From assembly GCA_024640845.1 (NCBI GenBank), contig JAHEEE010000044.1:1-32026 (forward strand): a stretch of 32,026 nucleotides of DNA, given 5' to 3'. This document shows positions 1 through 31,003 of this stretch, piece by piece. Positions within the stretch are counted from its first letter, which is position 1, and every line of letters begins with the position of its first letter. The translations under genes and the position numbers were made by a program. The notes under the pieces were generated by a model, which ran no database searches, was not told the DNA's origin, and saw only the letters and a program-made list of their open reading frames with translations. This stretch comes from Myxococcales bacterium. Lineage in GTDB: Bacteria > Myxococcota_A > Polyangia > Polyangiales > Houyiibacteriaceae.

Positions 1-333
1 CGCGATTCGAAGGGTGACCGGAGCACCCGTTCGAGCACGGACACACCACATGGTCGAGCAGCCACCCGGCGCGCGAGTACGACCCGAGACTAGATAGTGC
101 GGCTTGAATAAGCTCGGTCCCGGGACGAGCAAAGGATCGGTTCGATCGGGCGCTGAAACCGCATCAACGACTTCCCCAGCGTTCAGCCCGCTGAGATCCG
201 AAGAACCGTCGCCGCTCTCTACCAACAGGACCCTCTTGCCGCCTGCCGCGGCGCGCAAGGCGACTGCGAGGCCTGCGGGCCCGCTTCCGACGACACAAAC
301 GGCTGGACTATCGACTTCCCGCACCGTGACCAC
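1..333 (-). CDS. FAD-dependent (GMC-like) oxidoreductase, N-terminal part only
   Basis: Reading the minus strand from a GTG at 333, the frame is open to the window edge (111 codons). The protein begins with a beta strand and the dinucleotide-binding motif VCVVGSGPAGLAV (about residues 12-24), then a second strand ending in an acidic residue (RVLLVESGDG). A Gly-rich loop RAPGGCSTMW lies near residue 88 and recalls the GG(S/T)SxxW loop of GMC-family flavoproteins. These features support FAD binding. The substrate cannot be told because the catalytic C-terminus lies outside the window. An in-frame TAG lies two codons upstream of the GTG, so the start is 333 or the GTG at 324. The gene sits 29 bases behind the methyltransferase on the same strand and probably shares its transcript. 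A second, full-length GMC oxidoreductase is at 8265-9704. Confidence 0.72.
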   Translation of the reverse strand, partial: MVTVREVDSPAVCVVGSGPAGLAVALRAAAGGKRVLLVESGDGSSDLSGLNAGEVVDAVSAPDRTDPLLVPGPSLFKPHYLVSGRTRAPGGCSTMWCVRARTGAPVTLRIA

Positions 334-7875: not shown

Positions 7876-8268
7876 CTAGCTCTGATGACGGCAAAACGGG
7901 TTGTAGCAAGGGCTGACGTACGGGTCGTAGAGCGCGACGAAGCGGACCGGGCGCGATTGGTCGGCGTCGTTGATGAAGAAGTCTGTGGAGCTCAGATAGT
8001 TCATGTAAATCTCGTCGGGTAGGGGGCTGAACAGCAACTTGAGCGGGTTGCGCCGAATGGGATAGCGGTATTGCTCGAAGACGTCGACGAAGCGTCTCAC
8101 CCCAGCGGGATCGATGTCGAGGTAGTCGAAATGGGCGGTCAGCTTCCGCACGATCCACTCGCGTCGAAGCGAGTCCCAGCGCCAAACGCCTGCACCAGCG
8201 GTGAGCGCGGCGGCCCCGAGCAGCGACGCAACAAAGACCCTCCGAGTGACCCGAAGCGACTTGCTCAT
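7876..8268 (-). CDS. Small Tat-signal protein, probable partner of the GMC oxidoreductase
   Basis: The 130-residue protein begins with a twin-arginine signal: R9-R10 in TRRVFVAS followed by a hydrophobic stretch LLGAAALTAGAG. The remainder is a small soluble domain without recognisable catalytic residues. It ends in YVSPCYNPFC, with two cysteines six residues apart. Its ATG overlaps the TGA of the upstream GMC oxidoreductase (ATGA), which shows tight translational coupling. In gluconate and FAD-glucose dehydrogenases a small Tat-signal subunit carries the signal-less GMC subunit to the periplasm. The same role is likely here by analogy, although the sequence match to the known subunit 3 families is not obvious to me. 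Confidence 0.72.
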   Translation of the reverse strand: MSKSLRVTRRVFVASLLGAAALTAGAGVWRWDSLRREWIVRKLTAHFDYLDIDPAGVRRFVDVFEQYRYPIRRNPLKLLFSPLPDEIYMNYLSSTDFFINDADQSRPVRFVALYDPYVSPCYNPFCRHQS

Positions 8269-9704
8269 ATTGCCTGCCCCCCGAATAGGCTTCTAGCGGA
8301 GCGCAACGCCAACGCAGACAGCGTCAGTGTCGGGTTGGCCGGCGCTGCCGACGGGAATACGCTCGAGCCCGCCACCAGGAGGTTCCGAATGCGGTGATGA
8401 AGACAGTTTGCGTCGACTACGGAGTCGTCGGGGTTGTGACCCATCATGGTCGTGCACTGGATGTGGTAGTCGGTCTTTTCGATCTCGTCTTTCATCGCAA
8501 ACGACTCGACCGGAAGTGGCTTGAGCAGCTCTTGCAGGGAGGCTCGGACAGCTTCCAGGCCGCGACGCGTGTACTCGGAATGGCCGTGGTACTCGGTGAC
8601 TGGTCGGCTGGTGTCGTCCGCGTCTAGACGTACACGGTTGCGCTCCTGGGGGAGATCCTCGAGCACGAACTTGATCACGTATCTCTGGCGCCAGCGGCCG
8701 CGTAGATTCCGCAGTGTCGGCACGTTGTAGCTCTCGAACATGGCCGCAGCTCGCTCTCGTCGGTGCGGCCCATCATACAACATGTAGCCAAGCGCAGTCT
8801 GGGTCGTGCTTCCTTGAAAGCCGTCCATGCCGTCCAGCTCGACCGTGCACAACCCGCTGACCTGCTCGCACAGTCCGCGCCCAACCCAAGGGCCATCGAG
8901 GCCGGAGCGCAGAAGAAGGTGTGGATTGAAGAGGCCGTTGGCGCCGAGGACCACCAGCTCGGCCTTCGCGTAAAGCTCCGCGCCTTCCGAGCTAAAATGC
9001 ACACCCTTTGCGACCCCTGCGGCATGCTCGATTCGCTCGGCGGTCGCGTTGGCGCGCAGCTCGACGCGCGGATCCGCGTATTCGGTCCGCATCCCATTCA
9101 AAATGGTGAACTTGGAATCGATCGGACATAGATTGCAGCGAAGCGAAGAGCAACACTTGGGGCGCGCGGGCGGCCGTGAACGGGTGGGTTTGGCCACGGG
9201 TAGCGAGAAGAACAGTCCGGGATACGCGGCCGCCATGGCACGGTCTGGATCGCTCATCTGGTGCGGCGGACACGGATACGGCTTGCTGCGAGGGTATACG
9301 GTGTCGTCCGGCCCAGCGACTCCGAAGATCTCCTCGACCTCACAGTAATACGGTTCGAGGTCGTCGTAGCTGATTGGCCAGTCGAAGCCGACCCCGTAGC
9401 GCGAGCGCAGACGGAAATCGTTCGGGATCATCCGAGGCGTGTTGCCGCCCCAGCAGTTGGAGCTGCCGCCATGCGCCAGCGTGAACATCCAAGGCTTTGT
9501 GGGCGTCTCGTTGATGAACGTGTGCTGGAAGGATTCGTAGGTTAGCTCGTCCCTCCGGGCGATGCGCTGCGAGTGCGAAAGTGCTGGTCCACGCTCGAGC
9601 ACCAGAACTCGTGCCGTCTCCGGTGCGTGGCGCAAATACTCCTTTAGAAAGAAGGACGACGCGAACCCGCTCCCGATGCAAACAACATCGTAGCTCTGCA
9701 CCAT
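8265..9704 (-). CDS. GMC-family FAD oxidoreductase with a Cys-rich loop
   Basis: The 479-residue flavoprotein opens with VVCIGSGFASSFF and VLVLERG, the two halves of the FAD-binding Rossmann motif, then HGGSSNCWGG (near residue 77), the flavin-contact loop of the GMC family. A loop with Cys184, Cys185, Cys190 and Cys193 (KCCSSLRCNLCPID) resembles the Fe-S-binding loop of the catalytic subunit of FAD-dependent glucose dehydrogenase. The C-terminal domain has His423 (MMGHNPDD) and Asn457 (AAPANPTLT), matching the His/Asn catalytic pair. There is no signal peptide, so export would depend on the coupled Tat-signal protein downstream. It probably oxidises a sugar or alcohol. No cytochrome c subunit is adjacent. 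The gene lies in a five-gene run with Wzy-like and glycosidase-like genes. Confidence 0.85.
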   Translation of the reverse strand: MVQSYDVVCIGSGFASSFFLKEYLRHAPETARVLVLERGPALSHSQRIARRDELTYESFQHTFINETPTKPWMFTLAHGGSSNCWGGNTPRMIPNDFRLRSRYGVGFDWPISYDDLEPYYCEVEEIFGVAGPDDTVYPRSKPYPCPPHQMSDPDRAMAAAYPGLFFSLPVAKPTRSRPPARPKCCSSLRCNLCPIDSKFTILNGMRTEYADPRVELRANATAERIEHAAGVAKGVHFSSEGAELYAKAELVVLGANGLFNPHLLLRSGLDGPWVGRGLCEQVSGLCTVELDGMDGFQGSTTQTALGYMLYDGPHRRERAAAMFESYNVPTLRNLRGRWRQRYVIKFVLEDLPQERNRVRLDADDTSRPVTEYHGHSEYTRRGLEAVRASLQELLKPLPVESFAMKDEIEKTDYHIQCTTMMGHNPDDSVVDANCLHHRIRNLLVAGSSVFPSAAPANPTLTLSALALRSARSLFGGQAI

Positions 9705-9751: not shown

Positions 9752-11413
9752 TCACCACCAGCGCGGGTTCTGTTCGATGAACCGCATCACGCCGTCCAAC
9801 TTTGACGCCTCTGTGCGAGGTTGATCGACGTACTCTCGTAGCCCCCAGCGCCCCCACTTCGTGTACGCACCGCAGTTGTTGTAGTGGACAAACAGCTTCC
9901 CACCGGCTTCTCGCCATGCCGTCAGGTAGCGAAGATAGAGATCGCTCATCCTGGGGTGGCGATTGATCGCGTCGAAAAGCGTATTGATTTTCTCGTCATT
10001 CTCGACGCCAGCCGCCGCTGAGAAGTGCTGCCCGCCCTCGTATGCGACCAGGGTCAAGCCAAAGCGGGAGGCCATCTCGGCCTGCTCCTGCATCCGTTTG
10101 GTCGCCTTGGGGATGAGCTCGGCTTCAGTGCGCCGGAGGAGCTCATCGAGCGACATCTCAGCGTACTCGGCTCGGTCCTTTCGATTGACGGCGACGCCAA
10201 AGTACGGGGCTATCGCGAGAGCGTCCACCCGCTGGTACAGGTCACGCTGCATCAGTATCTTCTTGCTGGTCCAGGCGTTGGCGGCCTGACTCGCGACGAC
10301 GCGAACAACCCGGGAAGCGGATGCTCCGAAGACTTGATGCCAAGTTTTGAAAATCGCGTCGCTTCGCTCTGCTTGGCAAACGAGTGCTGCCCCGAATTTG
10401 CCTCCTTCGCTCTTTCCCGCCGGGCACCGCGCGACTTCCTTATGCTGATCGAACTGCGAGTTCCAGATTTCGTTGGAGTACTCGAGCCACACGCGAAACT
10501 CTTCCGGCAGAGTGTCGCGGACCAGAGTCGCAAACCGACGTATGTAGTCGTCGTCTGCCAGATGAGGGATGTTGACCCAGGGCTCTGCCCGTAGACGCGT
10601 AGCAAGCGACATCATGACCTCGACGGGTACGCCTCTTCGATTCCAGGTCGCATGCGTCACCTTGGGTCGATCCGCCCAAGTGCGGATTGTCGAATCGTTG
10701 GTGCGCATCCAATCCATGAAGCGCAAGACCAAGTAGTGACTCGTAGACTGCAAGAACTTTGGATGAAAGATCCGGTCTGGATACGTCTTCTCGAAAGCAA
10801 GACAGCGGCCGCTCGGGCAGGGATGGGAACGATCGCACCAGCGCGCGTCGTCTTCCTCGCAAGATCCCCCGGGCGGAAACACGCGGATGTTGCGGATGGG
10901 GTTGCCAGGACTCGTCTTGGAGATCGCGAAACGGACGGCGCCGTCTTTCTTCACCCGGATCACCTGCCGACCGGGGCGCGATTGGTTCTGCAGCAGCTCG
11001 TTACCGTGAGCGATCTCGCCCTCTCCGTCGTAGACGACGATGAACTCGCCCCCGGGGTGACCGCCTTTCGTCAACATGAGCGTCCTGGCGACCTGACCTG
11101 GCTTCAAAGAGCGGACCCAACCGTATTCGTCGAGATCGAGTGGGCGGCCATCGTCCCATTTCTCGTGGCTGCCGCTAATCCACGGTCGCGATGATTTGAA
11201 CAGATCCACGAACGGCATGTCTGTGCTGTAGTCGACGACCCCGGCCAAGTTGGACCCTATCGCTGACGTTCGATTGAGCTCGGAGCTCGGTCCCGAAGCC
11301 CGGGCGTGAACGCCGATCCGCTCCGCTGCAATCGGTTCGCTACGGGAACGGCTGCACGAGACGCACAATGCGACCCCGAGCAACCCGATCGCCAAAAGAA
11401 GCCTTCTTCTCAT
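9752..11413 (-). CDS. Glycosidase-like lipoprotein (TIM-barrel, clan-A-like motifs)
   Basis: The 553-residue protein has a lipoprotein-type N-terminus (MRRRLLLAIGLLGVALCVSC, Cys20). After a beta-rich region (about 60-180) that may bind carbohydrate, a barrel-like domain follows. It contains VWLEYSNEIWN, with Asn-Glu at 314-315 in the position of the acid/base of clan GH-A enzymes, and VAYEGGQH with Glu459, a candidate nucleophile. Many bacterial cellulose- or polysaccharide-linked proteins share the YSNEIWN motif. It would sit on the periplasmic or outer face and could trim or bind the polysaccharide. The specific GH family is not clear to me. The GMC oxidoreductase gene follows 47 bases downstream, and the upstream membrane gene ends 75 bases before it. 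Confidence 0.7.
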   Translation of the reverse strand: MRRRLLLAIGLLGVALCVSCSRSRSEPIAAERIGVHARASGPSSELNRTSAIGSNLAGVVDYSTDMPFVDLFKSSRPWISGSHEKWDDGRPLDLDEYGWVRSLKPGQVARTLMLTKGGHPGGEFIVVYDGEGEIAHGNELLQNQSRPGRQVIRVKKDGAVRFAISKTSPGNPIRNIRVFPPGGSCEEDDARWCDRSHPCPSGRCLAFEKTYPDRIFHPKFLQSTSHYLVLRFMDWMRTNDSTIRTWADRPKVTHATWNRRGVPVEVMMSLATRLRAEPWVNIPHLADDDYIRRFATLVRDTLPEEFRVWLEYSNEIWNSQFDQHKEVARCPAGKSEGGKFGAALVCQAERSDAIFKTWHQVFGASASRVVRVVASQAANAWTSKKILMQRDLYQRVDALAIAPYFGVAVNRKDRAEYAEMSLDELLRRTEAELIPKATKRMQEQAEMASRFGLTLVAYEGGQHFSAAAGVENDEKINTLFDAINRHPRMSDLYLRYLTAWREAGGKLFVHYNNCGAYTKWGRWGLREYVDQPRTEASKLDGVMRFIEQNPRWW

Positions 11414-11488: not shown

Positions 11489-13165
11489 CTAGAGCGGCTT
11501 GAAGCGAATGAAGCCGGTGCGGGTCGGCTCGTGCACCCACAGAAGCTCGAAGTCGAATGAGTCGAGCTCGGACCTGAGCTCGTCCTGCACCGCGCCACTT
11601 TCTCGGAGGCGCGCGCGAATCGCCTGAGCGTCCATATGCGGATCGATGCCCACATAGCCATTCGAAGCGAAGATATCGTAGCCGCGCTCGTAAGCGTGCG
11701 CGAGCATGCGGCCCTGGCGTAGCGCCATCGCGGAGTCTTTGTCCGCCGCAAACCCGAATGCATGAATCGATGGCGACTCGATCGAAAAAGAGATGATCCC
11801 GTCGTCGAGCTCGAGCAATTTGGCGTCAGGATCGATTTGGTCCAGCGCCTCTTGGATTGCGACTCGATCCGCCCAGAAATCGTATGATGGGTTGTGATCG
11901 ACGTAGGCCGAGCTGAGGATCTGTCGGCCCATCGAGAAGAGCAAGACGATGGCGTAGCCGATGTAGAGAGCCTTCCTCGCGACGCCTCGGGCATCGAGTC
12001 TCGCGTACGCACCTCCGACCAGAACGGCGAAGAAGAAGGTCGTCATGAGCATCGAGAGCGCGAAGTACCAGCTTCCCTGATGCCAGAGGTGCACGTACGT
12101 GAGGTTGTAGGCGAGCTTGACCAGGATGCCGAGCGCGAATCCGATGGGCAGAATGTAGCGAGGCTGCCGCCTGTGCGAGACGCCGACCGACCAGACGTAG
12201 ATCACGGACATCAGCGCGGGGCCGATGATCTGGACGAATCGAAACAGGTTCGCCTGGATATCTCCGGGGACGCTCGGTCTCCCCGTTGCCGACTCCTTGA
12301 TGTCGATCAGGAAAGGAAAGGCCCCGGAGAGACCCACATAGAGAGAGCGAAACAGTACGAACCCACCCTTGACGCTTCCGCTCACCGGAAGGAAGGCCCC
12401 GGCATAGGCCTTGTTGTAGACGAGATACAGTCCGAGCACGACGGTGCTCAGGGCGACCACGTTGAACGCGGGTCGGATCCGATCGCGCAATGGAACACCC
12501 GGGGTCAGCAAGAAGACGAGGAAAAAGGCGGGGATCACGAAAACATCGTCCAGGCGGGACAACATGATGAGCGGCAACACGAGCCCAAGCCGCCACGAGA
12601 CACCTCGGACCGAGGGGTCGTACATCGATTCCAATGTGAACCCTGGACGATGGACCTCGCGAGACAACACCAAGAGCGAAAGGCCGCCACAGAATAGGGA
12701 CACTCCGCTTTCGAGGCAGTTCACGCTGGACCAGATAGGCCAGTTGTCGTAGCCGACGCCGAGCGTCAGGTAGTAGACACCCGGCACGGTCAGGAAGCTG
12801 AGGAAGGCGGAGCCCGTGTAGCGGAAGATGGCCGCGCTGGTCATTGCGACCCCTGCGCTGGCAACCAGTACACTGAGTAGGAATCCGGCTATCAGCAGGC
12901 GCTCGGTGTCGCCCCCGATGACCCGATGAAGGGACGTCAGCATGAACTGCCAAAGGGGGTGGAATCCGTTGGTCGCGGTCTCGCCGTCGAAGGTATACCA
13001 GCTTAGCGAGGAGCGCTTCGCAACCGCCAAATACAGAAACGCGTCGGCGCGCACGAAGTTGAAGACTCCGCGCGATCCGGAACGGAGCAGGGTGTAGAGA
13101 GGGGGGATGGCTACGAGTGACCCGGTGCCCGCCGCCACCAGCCAAGGGGTCCACTTTTTCGTCAT
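11489..13165 (-). CDS. Multi-pass membrane protein, GT-C glycosyltransferase-like
   Basis: From the ATG at 13165 the protein has 558 residues, with about 10-11 hydrophobic segments and a C-terminal soluble tail. The first loop carries ADAFLYLAVAKRSSL and, soon after, ETATNGFHPLWQF. This acidic first loop with TNGFHPLW recurs in uncharacterised bacterial GT-C-type membrane proteins. The soluble tail (LDQIDPDAKLLELDDGIISF) is also seen in such proteins. It is probably a membrane glycosyltransferase, but the donor and acceptor are unknown. The start is chosen because ATG overlaps the TGA of the preceding gene (13164-13162), an ATGA coupling; an upstream in-frame start would overlap the other gene much more. 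It belongs to the five-gene minus-strand run. Confidence 0.73.
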   Translation of the reverse strand: MTKKWTPWLVAAGTGSLVAIPPLYTLLRSGSRGVFNFVRADAFLYLAVAKRSSLSWYTFDGETATNGFHPLWQFMLTSLHRVIGGDTERLLIAGFLLSVLVASAGVAMTSAAIFRYTGSAFLSFLTVPGVYYLTLGVGYDNWPIWSSVNCLESGVSLFCGGLSLLVLSREVHRPGFTLESMYDPSVRGVSWRLGLVLPLIMLSRLDDVFVIPAFFLVFLLTPGVPLRDRIRPAFNVVALSTVVLGLYLVYNKAYAGAFLPVSGSVKGGFVLFRSLYVGLSGAFPFLIDIKESATGRPSVPGDIQANLFRFVQIIGPALMSVIYVWSVGVSHRRQPRYILPIGFALGILVKLAYNLTYVHLWHQGSWYFALSMLMTTFFFAVLVGGAYARLDARGVARKALYIGYAIVLLFSMGRQILSSAYVDHNPSYDFWADRVAIQEALDQIDPDAKLLELDDGIISFSIESPSIHAFGFAADKDSAMALRQGRMLAHAYERGYDIFASNGYVGIDPHMDAQAIRARLRESGAVQDELRSELDSFDFELLWVHEPTRTGFIRFKPL

Positions 13166-14637
13166 GAGAACGCTCCCCACCCAGCTGCGGCGGCGCGCGC
13201 CCGCAATCGCTTCTCTCGCATCGCGTCCACAACCTCCTGCAAAATCCCCGACAGGCAACCCCAAAGCGCCCCGCCCAGAAACAAAGCCAAGCGAGTGAAG
13301 TCACCGTTGGGGATCAAATCGAACGCAGCGAAGCCGACCATCAGGCCAAGTCCGCCGAGAAGACGCCGATCAGAGATTCGCGGCACATATTTCATCCGTC
13401 GTACCAGGGCGATGAGAGGAAAGAGCAGCAAGCCGAAAGCGCCGATGAAACCGACGATCCCGTGATCGCCGAACCGTATGATCCAGGCTCCGTCACGTAT
13501 CGATACCGTAGACGATTCGCCCGACCAGCGCTCGAACACGCACGCCCGGCAGTAGCTTCCCCACCCGAACCAGGGACGCTCCAACGCCCGATCGAGCAAC
13601 CGTCCTTCGTTCTCGAGGCGAAGCGTCATCGATCGGGCTCGTTCGCGCCCGTATTCATCCTCGGCCCAAGCTTCGAGAGCCTCGACCGGAATGACATCGT
13701 TCGCACGAAGCAGGGGATAAAGGAACAAGAACCCCGCGAGGCCCGCGGCAGTCAGGGCTTGGCCGCGGGGGGAAGCCAGCAACACGAGTGGAGCCGCGAC
13801 CATAGTATAGAGAAAGGCGGCGAGGCTCTTTGAAAGAATGAGAACCACCCACAGATAGGACGCAACCCAGCCGGCAGAGAACCGAAAGACTTTGAGGCTA
13901 CTCTTGTACAGAGCCGCGGCTGCCATCACCGCGAGTGCTGTAAAGATGGCGACCGCAAGCCCATGGGCCATGAAGACCATGGGACGATAGCCACCATCGC
14001 GCATCGCCTGCAAGAAGGAATGCTGATGGAATCCGTATACCCAGCGATGCAACTGCGGGCTGAGGATGAGCTCGATGAACTGAAGAGGGGAATAGAGGAG
14101 CGCCGCGGCCACCAGCGTGGTGAGCAGCACACGAAGATCCGACGCGCTCCGGAACATCACGCTGCCCAAATAGAACGGAAGGACGACGGTGAGTAGAGCG
14201 TTGAGCACTGCGTGGACAGCGTCGTACGGAACGTGCCCCGGCACATCTCGAGCGCCGATCTGGTAGGGATCGGTATTGAGAAAGACCGTGACGACCGCGC
14301 CGCTCACGAGGAGCCCAACACAGAGTCTGAACCAGCGACTCTTGGGCGCATGGGCGAAGCGTTCGCGTCGAAAGACGGCTCCCCAGATCAATATCCAAAG
14401 CGGTACGATTTCTAGCTTGGAGAAGTCCGGAAGTCCTGGCGGCTTGAAGAAGACGATCTCGGGGAGCAGGAGCAAGCCTCCCAGAAAGAGAACCGCTGTC
14501 GCCTTGGCCGGTGGCCAGCGCCAGGCTCCGAAATAGCTAACGGGAATCCACAGGAAGAACGCGAGGACGCTCAGGATGTTGCCGTCGGAGTAATACTGCA
14601 CACCTGGCTCAGAAATCCTCGCGCATCCACGGCGCAA
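13162..14637 (-). CDS. O-antigen ligase/Wzy-like polymerase membrane protein
   Basis: The 491-residue protein has about 11-12 hydrophobic segments and a large periplasmic loop. The loop includes RSMTLRLENEGRLLDRALERPWFGWG (written here as one known landmark; key residues are R, E, R, and the PWFGWG end). That is the usual signature of the Wzy_C (O-antigen ligase/polymerase) superfamily. With the Wzx flippase it would polymerise or ligate repeat units on the periplasmic side. The start is uncertain: TTG 14637 is the longest, and GTG 14601, close to the first membrane segment, is a plausible alternative. The next gene overlaps its stop. Upstream is a 166-base divergent region shared with the GT2 gene at 14804. 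Confidence 0.8.
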   Translation of the reverse strand: MRRGCARISEPGVQYYSDGNILSVLAFFLWIPVSYFGAWRWPPAKATAVLFLGGLLLLPEIVFFKPPGLPDFSKLEIVPLWILIWGAVFRRERFAHAPKSRWFRLCVGLLVSGAVVTVFLNTDPYQIGARDVPGHVPYDAVHAVLNALLTVVLPFYLGSVMFRSASDLRVLLTTLVAAALLYSPLQFIELILSPQLHRWVYGFHQHSFLQAMRDGGYRPMVFMAHGLAVAIFTALAVMAAAALYKSSLKVFRFSAGWVASYLWVVLILSKSLAAFLYTMVAAPLVLLASPRGQALTAAGLAGFLFLYPLLRANDVIPVEALEAWAEDEYGRERARSMTLRLENEGRLLDRALERPWFGWGSYCRACVFERWSGESSTVSIRDGAWIIRFGDHGIVGFIGAFGLLLFPLIALVRRMKYVPRISDRRLLGGLGLMVGFAAFDLIPNGDFTRLALFLGGALWGCLSGILQEVVDAMREKRLRARAAAAGWGAFS

Positions 14638-21026: not shown

Positions 21027-21552
21027 CAAGAATCGGGCTCCTCAATCGTTTTTGGTCGGGCGGTCGGGCAGCCTACGTGCTGTTGGCGACTCTGTCCATG
21101 ACTTGTCCATGATCAAATCTCCTGTTGATTGCCCACCACGTCGGGTCGCTCTCCAAGATTGAAATGTCGGGTAGGGGGTCGGTGCGGCGCGGCCGGGAGC
21201 CGTATTTCACGGCGGTTTGTGCAAGGCGGAAGCGGCGGTCCGTCTGGGCGAATCTGAGTGCGGAGCAAGAGGCGGATGGCTTGAGAGGGCGTCGGTAGGC
21301 GTCGAGCGGGCCGGCCGGCTCAGGGTCCCGGCGGCGGCAACCGGTGCATGGGCTGGATGTGCAGAAACGAAGACGTCGACACGGCATTGGAGGCCAGGCT
21401 TCACTATGACGGAGCCAGCTATCCGACGAACCCGACTCTGCACCCGGTGAAACCGCCTAGCGGAACGACGGCGGGCGAGATCGTCGTCCGGAGATTTCAG
21501 TCGTTCACAGAGGGCCAGATACTGCGGTAGGCTCGGAGAGACGGTGTGCACC
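21027..21552. other. Gap of about 525 bases with no supported gene
   Basis: The stretch between the SRPBCC gene (start 21026, minus) and the sulfotransferase (21553, plus) should hold two divergent promoters. Open frames exist on both strands, but they show low-complexity Arg/Pro/Ser-rich translations without recognisable motifs. I saw no transfer RNA, terminator, repeat or insertion-sequence end. It may contain a decayed gene. Confidence 0.5.
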
Positions 21553-22269
21553 ATGCCGATGATCGTTGCGGAAGGTAAACTACTCTTCTTCGTGCACGTG
21601 CCCAAAGCCGGTGGGTCGAGCATCGAGGAGTATCTGGTTCGTCGCTTCGGCAGCCCGCTCTCGATGTATGCCAGGCAGGATTGGGTAGAACGTCGAGAAA
21701 AAGGTGTGATCATTCCGCCGACTCATTTGAGCGCAAAGGCTCTCGAGGACGTCATGCCTCCCAATACGGCCTATTGTTTCACGCAAGTGCGCAATCCGCT
21801 CCAGCGAACGCTGAGCCAATATCGATGGCAGGCCGGACGCTCGCGGATCAGCCGCTTCAGTTTCTCGACGTGGCTTCGCATCGTTCTGCGCTGCGCCCGC
21901 ATCGACGGGCGAGTGTATTACAATCACATTCGACCACAGTCGGATCTGGTGCCCGTGGACTGCGAGGTGTTCAGGCTCGAGGACGGTTTCGAGCCGCTAG
22001 TCCGCCGCCTCGATGAGGTGGTCGGCTCGAGCGCTCCCGAGGTCGAAGTCGGTCACCTCCTCAGAGCGAAATCCGTCCCGACCAGCGTTCACCGCGAGGA
22101 CGTCGAAGCGATCCAGGATTTCTATCGTTCCGACTACGCGCGCTTCGGATACGAGCTCGAGGATGTGACGGCGTTCGATCACGATCCTCTGGCGCCGGCG
22201 CGAGAGGGTCTTGCGAGATCGGTCGCTCCGGCCATCGTCGTCCGCCAATTGTTCAAGATGGTGGTTTAG
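21553..22269 (+). CDS. Sulfotransferase family 2-like protein
   Basis: The protein has about 238 residues. LLFFVHVPKAGGSSIEEYL (about residues 9-27) is the PAPS 5'-phosphosulfate-binding loop. CFTQVRNPLQRTLSQYRW (near residue 76) contains the Arg and Ser that bind the 3'-phosphate. The VPKAGGSS form is typical of Sulfotransfer_2 proteins, which sulfate carbohydrate. The protein is distinct from the other sulfotransferase at 1343. GGAGAG lies upstream; the start is ATG 21553, ATG 21559 or GTG 21544. No close partner gene is visible, but it sits near the polysaccharide locus and could act on the same glycan. Confidence 0.78.
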   Translation: MPMIVAEGKLLFFVHVPKAGGSSIEEYLVRRFGSPLSMYARQDWVERREKGVIIPPTHLSAKALEDVMPPNTAYCFTQVRNPLQRTLSQYRWQAGRSRISRFSFSTWLRIVLRCARIDGRVYYNHIRPQSDLVPVDCEVFRLEDGFEPLVRRLDEVVGSSAPEVEVGHLLRAKSVPTSVHREDVEAIQDFYRSDYARFGYELEDVTAFDHDPLAPAREGLARSVAPAIVVRQLFKMVV

Positions 22270-26326: not shown

Positions 26327-27712
26327 GTGTCTGCGCGAATTCTGGTCTGCGACGACGAAGCGAGCCTGCGCGAGATGCTTCAGATCTTGCTGCGGCGCGA
26401 AGGATATCGGGTGGACGCCGTCGACGGGGTTCACGCAGCGCGCGATCAGCTCGGAAGCTCCGATCCATATGATGTCGTGATCACCGACCTGGTGATGCCG
26501 GACGGAACCGGGATGGAAGTGCTCGACGCGGTTCGCGCCCGCAGCAACGACACCCAGATCCTGATGATCACCGCGTATGCCACCACCGAGCAGGCCGTCG
26601 AAGCCATGCGTCGCGGCGCATACGATTACGTCCAGAAGCCCTTCAAAAACCACGAGCTACTGGCCACGCTCGAGAAGGCGCTCGAGAAGCGCGCCATCGT
26701 GGCGGAGAACGAGACGCTTCGCGCTGAGGTCAAGTCGCGATGGACGGAGGGACAACTCATCGGGAAGAGCGCCGCGATGGACCGATTGCGTGACCTCGTC
26801 AAGCGCGTGGCCGGGGCAACGACCAGCGTTCTCATCACCGGGGAGAGCGGGACGGGCAAAGAGATGGTCGCCCGGGCGCTGCACTTTCAGAGCCCGCGCG
26901 CCGAGCAGCCGTTCGTCGTGCTGAACTGCGGCGCCGTGCCCGAAAACCTCATCGAGAGCGAGCTCTTCGGGCACGTCAAGGGCGCCTTCACCGGAGCCAC
27001 TGGCGCCAAAGAGGGCCTGTTTCGGGCCGCCGACGGGGGCACGCTGTTCCTCGACGAGGTCGGCGAGCTCCCGCCATCCCTTCAGGTGAGCCTGCTACGC
27101 GTCCTTCAAGATCGCAAAGTCAGGCCGGTCGGGGGCAGCACCGAGGTCGAGGTCGACGTGCGCGTGCTTGCGGCTACCAATCGTGACGTCGAATCCGAGG
27201 TTCAAGCCGGAACATTCCGAGAAGACCTGTTTTATCGCTTGAACGTGATCCGCATCGAAGTGCCCCCACTTCGCGACCGCAAGGAAGACATTCCGGTGCT
27301 CGCGAACTACTTCCTCGCCAAGCACGCGGCGCTTCAGGGTCGGCACATCGAGCTCTCGCAGGAGGCGATGCGATGGCTCGCCCAGCAGCCCTTCTCCGGC
27401 AACGTTCGTGAGCTAGAAAACATCATCGAGCGCGGCGTGACCTTGGCGCGCGGCAACACGGTGGAACGTGAGGACCTAGGCGACAGCCACCCCGCCAAGA
27501 AGGCAGGCAATCTCTCTCAGATTCCCGAAGGGACCTTCGATCTCGACGACTACCTCACGCAGGTCGAGCGTGAGCTCTTGTTCCGGGCGCTCGACCAAGC
27601 CGGCGGCGTTCGAAAGAAGGCCGCCGAGCTTCTCGGAATGAGCTTTCGGCAATTCAGGTATCGTTTGGCAAAACACATCGACCCTGAAGTGGGCGATGCG
27701 CGCAGCGATTGA
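26327..27712 (+). CDS. pilR: Sigma-54-dependent response regulator, PilR/NtrC type
   Basis: The 461-residue protein has three domains. The receiver (1-120) has Asp9-Asp10, phospho-acceptor Asp54 (VITDLVMPD), and the switch Thr/Ala (MITAYA) and Lys (QKPF). The AAA+ domain (about 140-370) has Walker A GESGTGKE, the sigma-54-contacting GAFTGA loop, Walker [12 protein letters not shown], and the Arg finger region [11 protein letters not shown]. The C-terminal Fis-type helix-turn-helix (about 410-455) has [20 protein letters not shown]. The start is GTG 26327. The pilin genes begin 25 bases downstream and a sigma-54 promoter precedes the third pilin gene, so pilin control is the likely job. No sensor kinase is next to it in the window. 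The pilR label rests on context. Confidence 0.85.
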
Positions 27713-27737
27713 TATAGTGGGCCGTGGAGGATCTTCT

Positions 27738-28265
27738 TTGGCACCTCAGCGACGAAGCGCAGGCTTCACCACCATCGAGCTCTTGATCGGGGTCGTGATC
27801 GTCGGGATCTTGGCCGCGCTCGCCGTCCCGACGTTCAAGGGATACGTCTATCGAAGCCGCGTGAGCGAGGCGGTGACGGTGCTCAACGAGATCAAGGCGC
27901 GGCAGGAGACCTATCGCAGCCGTTACGGCAACTATGCCGAGGTGAGTGGCAATGGAGACTGGGTGTCGGCGACCTTCACGCCAAGCTCGGCTCCCGGTCC
28001 GCAGGCGGTGGCTTGGCCGAGCGGCGCCGGTTGGGAAGAGCTCGGATTGAGCTCACCGGGTCCGGTTCGGTTTCGCTATGCAACGGTCGCCGGCCCGCCC
28101 GGGTCGACACCACCGACGAACAGCAACCTCAGCAACCGAGATTTCTGGTTCGCCGCGCAAGCTCGCGGAGACCTCGATGGGGATGGGACCACTTTCTTTC
28201 TCGAGGTCTATTCCGACTCGCGTCTGATGTACAACAGCGCGGCGGGCATAGGAGGCTACGAATGA
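27738..28265 (+). CDS. Type IV pilin-like protein 1
   Basis: The 175-residue prepilin has its TTG start at 27738 supported by GTGGAGG 7 bases upstream. The leader APQRRSAG is cut before Phe10 (SAG/FTTIELL), with Glu at +5 of the mature protein, as prepilin peptidase needs. The hydrophobic N-terminal helix (IELLIGVVIVGILAALAVPTF) and KARQETYRSRYGNYAE are typical of major and minor pilins. The C-terminal half has ARGDLDGDGTTFFLEVYSDS. This half closely matches the next pilin (FRYATVAG, GDLDGDG, IYNSAxGxGG), so the two arose by tandem duplication. It probably assembles into a pilus. It lies 25 bases behind the PilR-type gene and its stop overlaps the next start (ATGA). Confidence 0.87.
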   Translation: MAPQRRSAGFTTIELLIGVVIVGILAALAVPTFKGYVYRSRVSEAVTVLNEIKARQETYRSRYGNYAEVSGNGDWVSATFTPSSAPGPQAVAWPSGAGWEELGLSSPGPVRFRYATVAGPPGSTPPTNSNLSNRDFWFAAQARGDLDGDGTTFFLEVYSDSRLMYNSAAGIGGYE

Positions 28266-28771
28266 AGCGCAACCAAGGATTCACCATCACCGAGCTCATG
28301 ATCGCGGTCGTGATCATGGGGGTCCTGGCTACGCTCGCGATTCCGACCTTCACCTCGTACATCTACAAGGCGCGCGTGACCGAGGCATCGAACTTCCTCG
28401 GCGAAATCAAGCAGCGACAGGAGTCGTACCGCAACGAGTTCGGCCAATATTGCGCCGTCAACGGCGATGACTGGGGCAGCTACAACCCGACGACGCTTCC
28501 AGGCGCCGACCCGGTGGTGTGGACCTCGACGACCAACTGGGACCAGCTCGGCGCCAGCCCCGACGGTCCCATCCGTTTTCAATACGCCACCGTGGCGGGC
28601 TTCCCCGGCGACGCCGTGCCGAGCGGCACCAACCTCGACAACGACGATCACTGGTTCGCCGCCCGAGCGCTCGGCGATCTCGATGAGGATGGCGACGACT
28701 TCTTCCTCGAGATCTACTCTCAATCGAACACGATCTACAACAGTGCTAGCGGAAAAGGTGGCTGGGAGTGA
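28262..28771 (+). CDS. Type IV pilin-like protein 2
   Basis: The 169-residue prepilin has leader MKRNQG, with cleavage before Phe7 (NQG/FTITELM) and Glu at +5. After the hydrophobic helix, KQRQESYRNEFGQYCAV has a Cys, followed by a globular domain ending in ALGDLDEDGDDFFLEIYSQS and YNSASGKGGWE. It is a duplicate of pilin 1. The start overlaps the preceding stop as ATGA, so translation is coupled. The gap of 186 bases to the third pilin holds a promoter and a repeat array. The function is probably a minor or alternate pilin of the same system. Confidence 0.88.
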   Translation: MKRNQGFTITELMIAVVIMGVLATLAIPTFTSYIYKARVTEASNFLGEIKQRQESYRNEFGQYCAVNGDDWGSYNPTTLPGADPVVWTSTTNWDQLGASPDGPIRFQYATVAGFPGDAVPSGTNLDNDDHWFAARALGDLDEDGDDFFLEIYSQSNTIYNSASGKGGWE

Positions 28772-28796
28772 CAATTTCCGTCACCTGCGGGTGACG
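28768..28796. promoter_or_regulatory. GTGAC/GTCAC half-site array, possible activator site
   Basis: GTGAC (28768-28772), GTCAC (28780-28784) and GTGAC (28791-28795) alternate in orientation at 12- and 11-base spacing, about one helical turn each. The last two also form a hairpin, CGTCACC with GGTGACG around TGCG. The array lies about 110-140 bases upstream of the expected start from the sigma-54 promoter at 28881, a usual distance for NtrC-type activators. It begins inside the stop of pilin 2, so it could instead be a weak terminator. Confidence 0.4.
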
Positions 28797-28880
28797 AATT
28801 CTGTCCTTCTGGCCCGGTTTTCGGCACTGTCGATCGGCGATTCGTCAATAATTTCGAGTCGGGGTCCACTTCGGGACAAT

Positions 28881-28896
28881 TGGCACGGCAGCTGCA
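28881..28896 (+). promoter_or_regulatory. Sigma-54 promoter before the third pilin gene
   Basis: TGGCACGGCAGCTGCA matches the TGGCACG-N4-TTGC(A/T) consensus at all positions but one (C for the first T of TTGCA). The -24 GG is at 28882-28883 and the -12 GC at 28894-28895. Transcription would start near 28906, about 50 bases before the pilin ATG. A PilR-type activator is encoded just upstream, which fits. Confidence 0.8.
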
Positions 28897-28957
28897 TTGT
28901 CATGGAGCAGCAACTTTGAATTATGCGGGCACTGGCCCGGGGGAAAGGTAACGAAAC

Positions 28958-29527
28958 ATGAACAAGCTACTCTCGAAGAAAGAGGGATTCACCCTCATCG
29001 AGCTGATGATCGTCGTCGCTATCATCGGCATTCTCGCCGCGATCGCGATCCCGGCATTCATCAACTACGTGAAGCGTTCGAAGACCTCGGAAGCGGGTGC
29101 GAACCTCAAGTCGCTCTTCCAGGGCGCCGCAGCCTACTACGAGCAGGAAAACTGGAGCCAGGGTCTCGTGACCGCTGGCGGCACCGTTGCCTCGTCGACA
29201 CACTGCACGGTTTCCAGCGCAGCGCAGAGCGGTAACCCGACCGACCAAAAGCGCGTCGTCGACTGGAGCGCGGAAACCAACGCTGCCGAGTTTGCGGCGC
29301 TCAACTTCGGTCCAGCCGATCCGATTTACTTCGACTACAACGTCGTCGCGACGCCGGCTGCTACCGCCTGCGGTATCGGACCGAACTCCGCGATCTACAC
29401 CTTCCAAGCCATCGGCGACCTCGACAACGATGGCACCCTGTCGAACTTCAACCTCGAGGCCGGTTCGAACCCGGACAACACGCTCTACCGAGCGCCCGGC
29501 ATCGAGCAGGTCAACCCGCTCGAGTGA
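28958..29527 (+). CDS. pilA: Type IV pilin, major-type (PilA-like)
   Basis: The 189-residue prepilin has leader [10 protein letters not shown], with cleavage before Phe11 ([10 protein letters not shown]) and Glu at +5. The hydrophobic helix [20 protein letters not shown] is the classic pilin form. The mature protein has Cys in SSTHCTVSS and ATACGIG, likely a disulfide, and ends with [13 protein letters not shown]. It follows its own sigma-54 promoter, has a fair ribosome binding site (GGGGGAAAGG), and is closed by a strong terminator, so it is a single-gene unit. That and the long conserved leader make it the best candidate for the main pilin subunit. The pilA label is by analogy. Confidence 0.88.
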
Positions 29528-29550
29528 TCGATTTCGGATGACCACTGCAG

Positions 29551-29577
29551 GGGCCGCGGCGACAGCCGCGGCCTTTT
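29551..29577 (+). terminator. Rho-independent terminator after the third pilin gene
   Basis: GGCCGCGGC (29552-29560) pairs with GCCGCGGCC (29565-29573) through a GACA loop, followed by TTTT (29574-29577). It lies 24 bases after the pilin stop. It is the clearest intrinsic terminator in the window and separates the pilin from the next gene. Confidence 0.85.
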
Positions 29578-29596
29578 GCATTTAAGGGGCGCCTTG

Positions 29597-30469
29597 GTGT
29601 TCTTGGGTATACTTCGAGCCGTGAAGGCGGGGGCACGGATGCTTGCGGTGGCGGTGGCGGTGGCGGCGCTCGCCGGCGTGTGGTCGCTTCGCGGCCGCGC
29701 GATGGAGCAGTACCTCCAAACCCAGACCTACGAGGACATCTACTATCTGCCGCCCCCCGCTTGGCTGCAGGTGATGAGCCTCGGCTATCGGCGCGCCCTC
29801 GCGGACCTGATCTGGCTCCGAGCGCTGATCTACTTCGGCGACGAGTTCGAGAACAGGGGCGCCGTGAAGCACGTCTTCAACTATGGGGAGTCGATGTTGG
29901 CCCTCGACCCCGACTTCCGTCGCGTATACCGCTGGGTGGGGGTAGCGGGGGTGTACACGCCAACGGGCAGCCCGCCGGAGTTCATGGAGCGGGCGATCAA
30001 TGTGCTTCGGCGTGGCGTAGAGCGCTTCCCCGAAGACGGTCAGCTCGCATGGGACGCGGGCGCGACGATCATGTACGAGCTGCTTCCACACCTTCCAAAG
30101 GACGACCCAGACCGGGAGCGCCTACGCACCGAGGGCACCGAGCACATGATGGCGGCGGCCCGCCTAGGCGCGGGGCCAGACTGGCTCGTCATCACGAACG
30201 CAAGCGCGCTTCGAAAGCTCGGAGAGAAAGAGCGCGAGCTTCACCACCTCGAGGAGATGTACGCCATGGTGCGCGACCCAGTCGTCAAAGGGCAGATCGA
30301 AGTGCGTCTCTCGCAACTTCGTGACGAGGCGTATGCGGAGGCGTTCCGCCGCGCGAACGAGGAGTTCGAGGAACGAAGAAAGGCCGAGTTCCCCTACCTG
30401 CCCCCGACGCTCTACTTCTTCGTCGCCGACCCGATCGAAAGCGCAATCGGCCTCGGGGACCCAAGTTAG
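29597..30469 (+). CDS. Membrane-anchored TPR-like protein of the pilin locus
   Basis: The 290-residue protein starts at GTG 29597 with AAGGGG upstream; an in-frame TTG overlapping the terminator is less likely. One N-terminal membrane helix (about residues 10-30) is followed by YLPPPAWLQVMSLGYRRALADLIWLRALIYFGD, a segment found in envelope proteins next to pilin and pseudopilin genes. Helical hairpins follow (FERA-type, LRRGVERFPEDGQLAWDAG, NASALRKLGEKERELHHLEEMY) that look like TPR repeats. It probably faces the periplasm and binds partner proteins. The next gene follows directly after its stop. The specific job in the pilus system is not known to me. Confidence 0.72.
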   Translation: MFLGILRAVKAGARMLAVAVAVAALAGVWSLRGRAMEQYLQTQTYEDIYYLPPPAWLQVMSLGYRRALADLIWLRALIYFGDEFENRGAVKHVFNYGESMLALDPDFRRVYRWVGVAGVYTPTGSPPEFMERAINVLRRGVERFPEDGQLAWDAGATIMYELLPHLPKDDPDRERLRTEGTEHMMAAARLGAGPDWLVITNASALRKLGEKERELHHLEEMYAMVRDPVVKGQIEVRLSQLRDEAYAEAFRRANEEFEERRKAEFPYLPPTLYFFVADPIESAIGLGDPS

Positions 30470-31003
30470 ATGTCGCGCGGCCGCCCGAGACTGAGCCTCA
30501 TCGAGGCGGCGCTCCTGCTTTGCTTGATCGCGGTGGTGCTAGCCGTGTTCGTGCCGACGTTCGTGCGCCGGATCCGAACCAACAAGATCAGCGAAGCGGC
30601 GGAGCTTCTCCAGGAAATGAGCCAGCGCGCGAGCGCCTACTACGACACGACGCGCCCGTCACTCGAACCGGGCTGCCTACCTCCGGCCGCGGGCCCAACC
30701 CCAAGCGCCCCGAGCGGAGAGCCGCGCGCGATCGATTTCTTTTCGCCTCAAGCCGCGGGCCACGCCACCTGGGAAGCCATCGGGTTTCAGCCGGAGCGCC
30801 CCATCCGATTCAGCTACAGCTATACCCCCTCCGAACACGGGTGCGGCTTGCGCGGCTCGACCGAGGACGTCTCCGTGGTATTTCGCGCCGAGGGTGACCT
30901 CGACGGTGACGGCGTGCGCTCGGTGTTTGAACGGCGCGCTTCCGCTGGGCGGGATGGCTTCGCGCCAGGCGATGCACTGCTCGTCCACCAGCGCACTGAA
31001 TAG
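30470..31003 (+). CDS. Pilin-like protein with a degenerate prepilin site
   Basis: The 177-residue protein has the pilin plan: a basic leader, a hydrophobic helix (SLIEAALLLCLIAVVLAVFVPTF) and a soluble domain. The sequence NKISEAAELLQEMSQRASAYYDTT parallels the other three pilins. The C-terminal loop AEGDLDGDGVRSVFE is also shared. If Glu12 is the +5 Glu, the cleavage site is Arg7/Leu8, lacking the usual Gly and Phe. It may be uncut or be cut atypically. Its ATG directly follows the TAG of the TPR-like gene. It might be a minor pseudopilin or an accessory tip protein. The gene ends 6 bases from the convergent J-domain gene. Confidence 0.75.
   Translation: MSRGRPRLSLIEAALLLCLIAVVLAVFVPTFVRRIRTNKISEAAELLQEMSQRASAYYDTTRPSLEPGCLPPAAGPTPSAPSGEPRAIDFFSPQAAGHATWEAIGFQPERPIRFSYSYTPSEHGCGLRGSTEDVSVVFRAEGDLDGDGVRSVFERRASAGRDGFAPGDALLVHQRTE

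Follow-up and report, generated by a model that had tools for sequence, protein, structure and literature searches.

What does a GMC flavoprotein do inside a polysaccharide gene cluster, and how is it related to the small twin-arginine protein encoded immediately after it? The question arises from a 32,026-nucleotide stretch of myxococcal DNA (hereafter, the window), for which an initial annotation had suggested an exported enzyme oxidising the polysaccharide of the locus or its breakdown products. On the evidence set out below, we consider it likely that the pair represents a single periplasmic dehydrogenase, in which an iron-sulfur flavoenzyme would be exported by its Tat partner and would deliver electrons to a c-type cytochrome. 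The earlier interpretation is right on enzyme type and on the coupling of the two proteins, probable on export, and uncertain on function.

Gene organization around the pair

The catalytic flavoprotein is a product of 479 aa with an ATG start (8265..9704, minus strand), recognised through PF05199, PF00732 and phmmer matches, and its partner is a twin-arginine protein of 130 aa, also with an ATG start (7876..8268, minus strand). The stop codon of the enzyme gene and the start codon of the partner gene share bases in an ATGA overlap (...GCAATATGAGC...), as had been claimed. Both genes belong to a minus-strand operon encoding, from head to tail, a Wzy/O-antigen-ligase-like membrane protein (13162..14637), a multi-pass membrane protein of 558 aa (11489..13165), a predicted lipoprotein of 553 aa (9752..11413), the enzyme and the small protein. 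Since the plus strand around this operon carries Wzx, GT4, GT2, WecG-type, UDP-GlcNAc 2-epimerase and sulfotransferase genes, the pair is surrounded by a polysaccharide cluster. We saw no CXXCH cytochrome gene next to the pair in the window, in agreement with the reported absence of the usual cytochrome c subunit.

Of the further operon content previously described, the Wzy-like protein is retained on the strength of a Wzy_C match of 19.7 bits, which lies under the cut-off of 31.7; a match to TIGR03097 (E 4.5e-4) is likewise far under its cut-off. The description of the lipoprotein as glycosidase-like found no counterpart in our searches, which returned neither a Pfam match at E 0.05 nor a meaningful PDB sequence match for this protein. 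The 558-aa membrane protein, which is additional to the operon genes listed initially, matched no Pfam family and possibly represents a GT-C-type glycosyltransferase, its multi-pass character and GT-C likeness being judged by eye. The same protein resembles the one encoded immediately after the pair in a relative, L050 (phmmer E 1e-8). A GT-C motif sought by regular expression gave no match. Two sulfotransferase-like genes were also observed in or near the polysaccharide cluster (1337-2338 and 21544-22269), the second by a match to PF03567 and the first by eye.

The truncated gene at the start of the window (1..333, minus strand) had been put forward as a second member of the enzyme type. A 121-base exact overlap connects it to contig C110 of the same genome (locus L034), where the gene continues, yielding a protein of 549 aa in all, of which the window holds the 5' part. 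Its identity as a GMC protein is upheld by the joined sequence (PF05199, E 2e-21 in the C110 part); its proposed membership is not, as it lacks the Cys loop, has Met at the position of Cys84 as judged by motif, and is not followed by a Tat partner gene. To judge from these features, it is a GMC protein of a different kind from the enzyme of the pair. Contig C110 also holds further glycosyltransferase-like genes.

The flavoprotein, its Cys loop and flavin

Matches of the enzyme to PF05199 (67.7 bits; cut-off 24.6) and PF00732 (24.8 bits; cut-off 23) identify a GMC fold, and its N-terminus begins directly with the FAD-binding fold, so that no signal peptide is apparent by eye, as initially described. 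Among solved structures, the best phmmer matches are to the alpha subunit of the Burkholderia cepacia FAD glucose dehydrogenase (BcGDH, alpha/gamma/beta; 6a2u, 8hdd, 8grj), with an E value of 4e-44 over residues 75-472 (6a2u_B/8hdd_A), followed by the large subunit of the Gluconobacter fructose dehydrogenase (FDH; PDB 7w2j; E 1e-36). The likeness to the catalytic subunit of FAD-dependent glucose dehydrogenase that had been noted is thereby supported. For structural comparison we modelled a relative, L052, together with its partner by reading through the intervening stop codon, a modelling device that is available where both genes share a frame, whereas those of the window are in different frames; partner-only rows, which were misplaced when added, were left out of the alignment. 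The resulting two-chain model (pTM 0.87) has 6a2u_B as its best match, with a Z of 42.2 over 462 residues. Bacterial pyranose 2-oxidase and C-glycoside oxidases (7qva, 8qve, 7dve) are alike in possessing the GMC fold but score lower (Z 32-34), their sequence match being confined to the C-terminal part. The predicted catalytic pair, also shared with BcGDH, consists of His414 (8463..8465, minus strand) and Asn457 (8334..8336, minus strand), which align with BcGDH His476 and Asn519, respectively, and are invariant in the family enzyme alignment.

Relatives were collected through a degenerate-pattern scan of 84,980 species, each represented by one genome, from which 80 of 233 relatives were kept. 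Given that one of the two scan patterns contains Cys84 and the other Cys193, each Cys was assessed for conservation in loci retrieved without relying on it: the full Cys loop is present in 56 of 56 loci found through the first pattern, Cys84 in 60 of 65 found through the second, and both in all 10 loci found through BLAST. Overall, the loop, with a spacing of CC-x4-C-x2-C, occurs in each of the 67 non-redundant loci, which argues against a chance occurrence of these residues.

In the window the loop comprises Cys184, Cys185, Cys190 and Cys193 (9126..9155, minus strand), at the positions originally given. The segment RPKCCSSLRCNLCP aligns with RPTCCGNNNCMPICP of BcGDH, placing the four residues opposite C212, C213, C218 and C222. 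In BcGDH, Cys212, Cys218 and Cys222 hold a 3Fe-4S cluster, and Cys213 forms a disulfide with Cys152 of the gamma subunit (PMC6719666). By this correspondence Cys184, Cys190 and Cys193 are predicted to form a 3Fe-4S site, and Cys185 would be available for an inter-subunit disulfide. From the aligned sequences, an iron-sulfur cluster in the enzyme is probable; that the four Cys come together is supported indirectly, through the sequence and fold alignments to 6a2u. The last two Cys residues of the loop are nevertheless one residue closer together in the family than in BcGDH and FDH (x2 versus x3, the latter having CC-x4-C-x3-C). This difference in spacing, together with the predicted status of the cluster in the enzyme, would suit an alternative in which the four residues hold no Fe-S cluster and instead form disulfides or bind another metal, the partner serving as a structural subunit. 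Weighed against the agreement in position and order with a crystallographically defined cluster loop, and the invariance of all four residues, we regard this alternative as very improbable. Three GMC dehydrogenases from the same order (L015, L016 and L018) also share the GMC fold and a Cys-rich loop, but they possess a C-x5-C-x3-C spacing and Leu or Ile at the position of Cys84, and fall on a separate branch.

A further difference from BcGDH concerns the flavin. Cys84 (9453..9455, minus strand) aligns without gaps with BcGDH His105, whose bond to FAD was seen in the crystal (PMC6719666). Residue 84 is Cys in 62 of the 67 non-redundant loci and never His, whereas other GMC proteins that were compared have His, Leu, Ile, Arg, Met or Val at this position. 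As an addition to the preferred reading, Cys84 might thus carry the FAD covalently, as 8-alpha-S-cysteinyl FAD, in place of the His of known GMC enzymes, a proposal to which we assign a little less than even confidence. Opposing it are the Arg, Ala or Ser found in the other five loci and the Met of two further myxococcal loci, which indicate that such a bond would not be essential, as well as the use of Cys84 in one of the two scan patterns. With respect to the latter, Cys84 also occurs in 15 of the 20 loci that the other pattern alone detected, in addition to the BLAST-found loci given above. Our search of the literature for GMC enzymes with a cysteinyl FAD gave no report, which does not in itself prove absence. 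Two Thiotrichaceae loci (L047 and L060) were observed to have Ala as residue 84 and to lack a nearby partner gene.

A dedicated partner family and probable Tat-dependent export

The partner carries a twin-arginine motif, T-R-R-V-F-V, with Arg9-Arg10 encoded at 8239..8244 (minus strand) and a hydrophobic stretch following it; R10 is invariant in the partner-family alignment. The Tat-signal model TIGR01409 matches 13 of 46 family members, the window's own copy not being among them; apart from such signal models, which some members match, the 46 gave no hit to Pfam or NCBIfam. At the opposite end of the protein, Cys121 (7906..7908, minus strand), within a C-terminal C-x-N-P-F motif, is the only invariant column among 50 aligned partners, and is the proposed disulfide partner of enzyme Cys185. 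It recalls Cys152 of the BcGDH gamma subunit, which lies in the C-terminal sequence ...SYCPNKPGFWADKPIERQA (SYCPNKPGFWA); this likeness was noted by eye, and we do not claim common descent from it. In the FDH small subunit the corresponding residue is Ala.

BcGDH and the window pair are alike in their GMC fold, His/Asn pair, placement of a four-Cys loop, signal-less catalytic subunit, and Tat partner with a C-terminal Cys, while the small subunits themselves differ: BcGDH gamma is a PF12318 protein encoded upstream of the catalytic subunit, and the window partner is encoded downstream and is not a PF12318 protein. The large subunits of FDH and of PF12318-type sorbitol dehydrogenases show homology and a similar Cys loop, with the same differences as for BcGDH. 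None of 46 partners matched PF12318 at E 1, compared with three BcGDH/FDH-type gamma subunits that do so at E 1e-31 or better, and PF13618 (gluconate 2-dehydrogenase subunit 3) was not among the families matching any of the 46 at the same threshold; assignment of the partner to either family was rejected for want of sequence support. Profile comparison with BcGDH gamma through hhalign gave a probability of 3.5 and aligned the Tat signal only, and this lack of detectable homology beyond the signal counts against our preferred reading. An AF2 model of the partner is confident (mean pLDDT 89.7), and neither a PDB fold match nor a gamma chain was found for it among Foldseek and VIA-align rows, an absence that is not conclusive. 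The best VIA-align rows (RMI1 N-terminus, Z 5.2; ClpC1, Z 5.0) have scores typical of common helical arrangements and were set aside.

The association between enzyme and partner is extensive. A partner gene lies directly downstream of the enzyme in 60 of the 67 non-redundant loci, 59 of which were recognised by script and one of which, L031, was added after its partner was found to be hidden by a long open frame; in five of the 67 a nearby partner is missing, a further point against our reading. Across 96 related genomes, a full-length enzyme was found in six, and the partner in exactly the same six and no others. Searching 377 genomes of the phylum with the partner only identified it in 15. 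Ten of the myxococcal loci found in this manner, five of which were already in the scan set, were examined, and nine possess a Cys-loop enzyme close by, the tenth ending near a contig edge. Pairwise distances among enzymes and among partners are also correlated (Spearman 0.55), a value reached by none of 2000 permutations (null 0.00, SD 0.08). The coupling of the flavoprotein to a Tat partner, as first proposed, is thus borne out by both gene order and co-occurrence. In one locus, L075, two same-strand partner copies were observed with about 2 kb between them, an arrangement suggestive of a tandem pair.

In a quick maximum-likelihood tree, all 51 sampled members fall on one side of a branch with a support of 100, apart from the BcGDH and FDH types. 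The kept loci derive from Gemmatimonadota, Latescibacterota, Planctomycetota, Nitrospirota, Myxococcota, Pseudomonadota, Bdellovibrionota, Bacteroidota, Verrucomicrobiota, Zixiibacteriota and Eiseniibacteriota. By these sequence criteria, the pair is an unnamed family, present in more than 10 phyla, that forms a branch of a known enzyme type. An unannotated small protein is in this way tied to a large and scattered set of proteins annotated as 'GMC family oxidoreductases'.

The encoding of a signal-less enzyme and a twin-arginine partner in one transcription unit resembles a Tat hitch-hiker pair, and the genome of the window has TatC. From these features, the small protein probably carries the enzyme across the membrane. 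We propose that the flavoprotein would fold in the cytoplasm, taking up FAD and a 3Fe-4S cluster on Cys184, Cys190 and Cys193, and bind the small protein, whose twin-arginine signal would take the folded complex through the Tat pore by hitch-hiking. Following export, Cys121 of the partner would bond to Cys185, next to the cluster, and His414 and Asn457 would oxidise an alcohol group, a sugar or glycan being the likeliest substrate. Electrons may then pass from FAD to the cluster and onward to a c-type cytochrome, supplied in trans in this genome.

Electron acceptor and substrate

The BcGDH operon includes a triheme cytochrome c beta subunit, which the window operon lacks. Five relatives instead have monohaem domains: the partner is fused to a monohaem Cytochrome_CBB3 domain in L030, L031 and L032, three myxococcal loci that alone show this arrangement, and in L040 and L062 the gene ahead of that for the enzyme encodes a monohaem cytochrome c. 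Several cytochrome c domains are also encoded in the genome of the window, elsewhere than at the pair. Taken together, these fusions, adjacent genes and genomic domains make a cytochrome c supplied in trans our best guess for the electron acceptor, against which stands the finding that in most loci, among them that of the window, no cytochrome c gene lies near the pair.

A different set of neighbours was observed in other loci. A predicted HTTM-like membrane protein, its domain likeness being to that of vitamin K-dependent carboxylase, is encoded near the pair in 17 loci (L002, L008, L009, L035, L036, L037, L039, L054, L056, L057, L064, L066, L067, L080, L090, L105 and L110), and a DCC1-like thiol-disulfide oxidoreductase gene recurs in eight, seven of which are shared with the HTTM-like protein. 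One idea suggested by these neighbours is a quinone-binding acceptor.

With regard to substrate, the setting of the window invites the view that the substrate oxidised by the exported enzyme is a sugar of the locus's polysaccharide, or of its lipid-linked or hydrolysed units. Consistent with this, the operon joins the pair to Wzy-like and GT-C-like genes inside a cluster with Wzx, GT2, GT4, WecG-type and UDP-GlcNAc 2-epimerase genes, and Wzx, GT2, GT4, Wzy or GT-C-like markers were found around 38 of 59 relatives with long flanks, compared to none of 19 control stretches, a count that is biased upward by the drawing of markers from the same loci. Polysaccharide markers are present in 18 of 18 rhizobial loci, Wzx and glycosyltransferase neighbours recur around relatives in Proteobacteria, and the nearest sequence to the window enzyme, L077, also lies by Wzx and GT2. 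Conversely, a place in an operon is no proof of substrate, and neighbours outside rhizobia are very mixed, with 129 Pfam families represented in 111 genes. Further, Wzx, Wzy, GT2 and WecG genes are near none of the 16 other myxococcal loci, seven of which have a GT-C-like membrane protein, and searches with the Wzy, GT4, lipoprotein and PMT-like genes of the window turned up no relatives near other pairs. On these counts, the suggested action on the polysaccharide is poorly supported. We hold this view tentatively, a glycan-related substrate being plausible from gene context. A literature search for the pair in exopolysaccharide or rhizobial contexts found no report, which likewise does not prove absence.

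Alternatively, the enzyme could be an ordinary catabolic sugar or polyol dehydrogenase that entered the cluster by chance after horizontal transfer. The sporadic distribution of the partner in the phylum (15 of 377 genomes) accords with such a history, as does the quick tree, which does not group the genus's two copies as sisters (with modest support), and free glucose and fructose are the substrates of the closest characterised relatives. On the other hand, the spacing between the pair and the polysaccharide genes is operon-like, glycan or GT-C-like neighbours recur in several phyla, and no sugar transporter or catabolic gene was recognised beside the pair. On balance, we judge a purely catabolic role to be rather unlikely.

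Returning to the preferred reading of a Tat-exported dehydrogenase, its fullest form would describe a further kind of Fe-S GMC dehydrogenase, found in more than 10 phyla and having its own partner family, a cysteinyl FAD not known for GMC enzymes, cytochrome c fusions, and activity on cell-surface glycans or lipid-linked sugars. That every one of these elements holds jointly appears unlikely, and specific predictions can be offered for several of them, namely the 3Fe-4S cluster, the inter-subunit disulfide and the cysteinyl FAD. Glucose sensors that work by direct electron transfer employ Fe-S GMC dehydrogenases, and a new branch that in some members has a built-in single-haem cytochrome is for this reason of practical interest.

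Additional features were observed in the vicinity of the pair and elsewhere in the window. In 25 loci (L001, L002, L008 and 22 others, mainly rhizobial), a phosphoribosyltransferase-like protein is encoded close to both the pair and Wzx. Just before the pair of a genome from the same genus (L029:6658-8271) lies a membrane protein gene with a third-position GC of 0.42, much below that of its neighbours, and by this measure possibly transferred recently. Finally, at 26327-31003 the window has a gene for a sigma-54 response regulator and, after it, several pilin-like genes, which cluster together by BLAST and one of which carries an N-terminal methylation motif.
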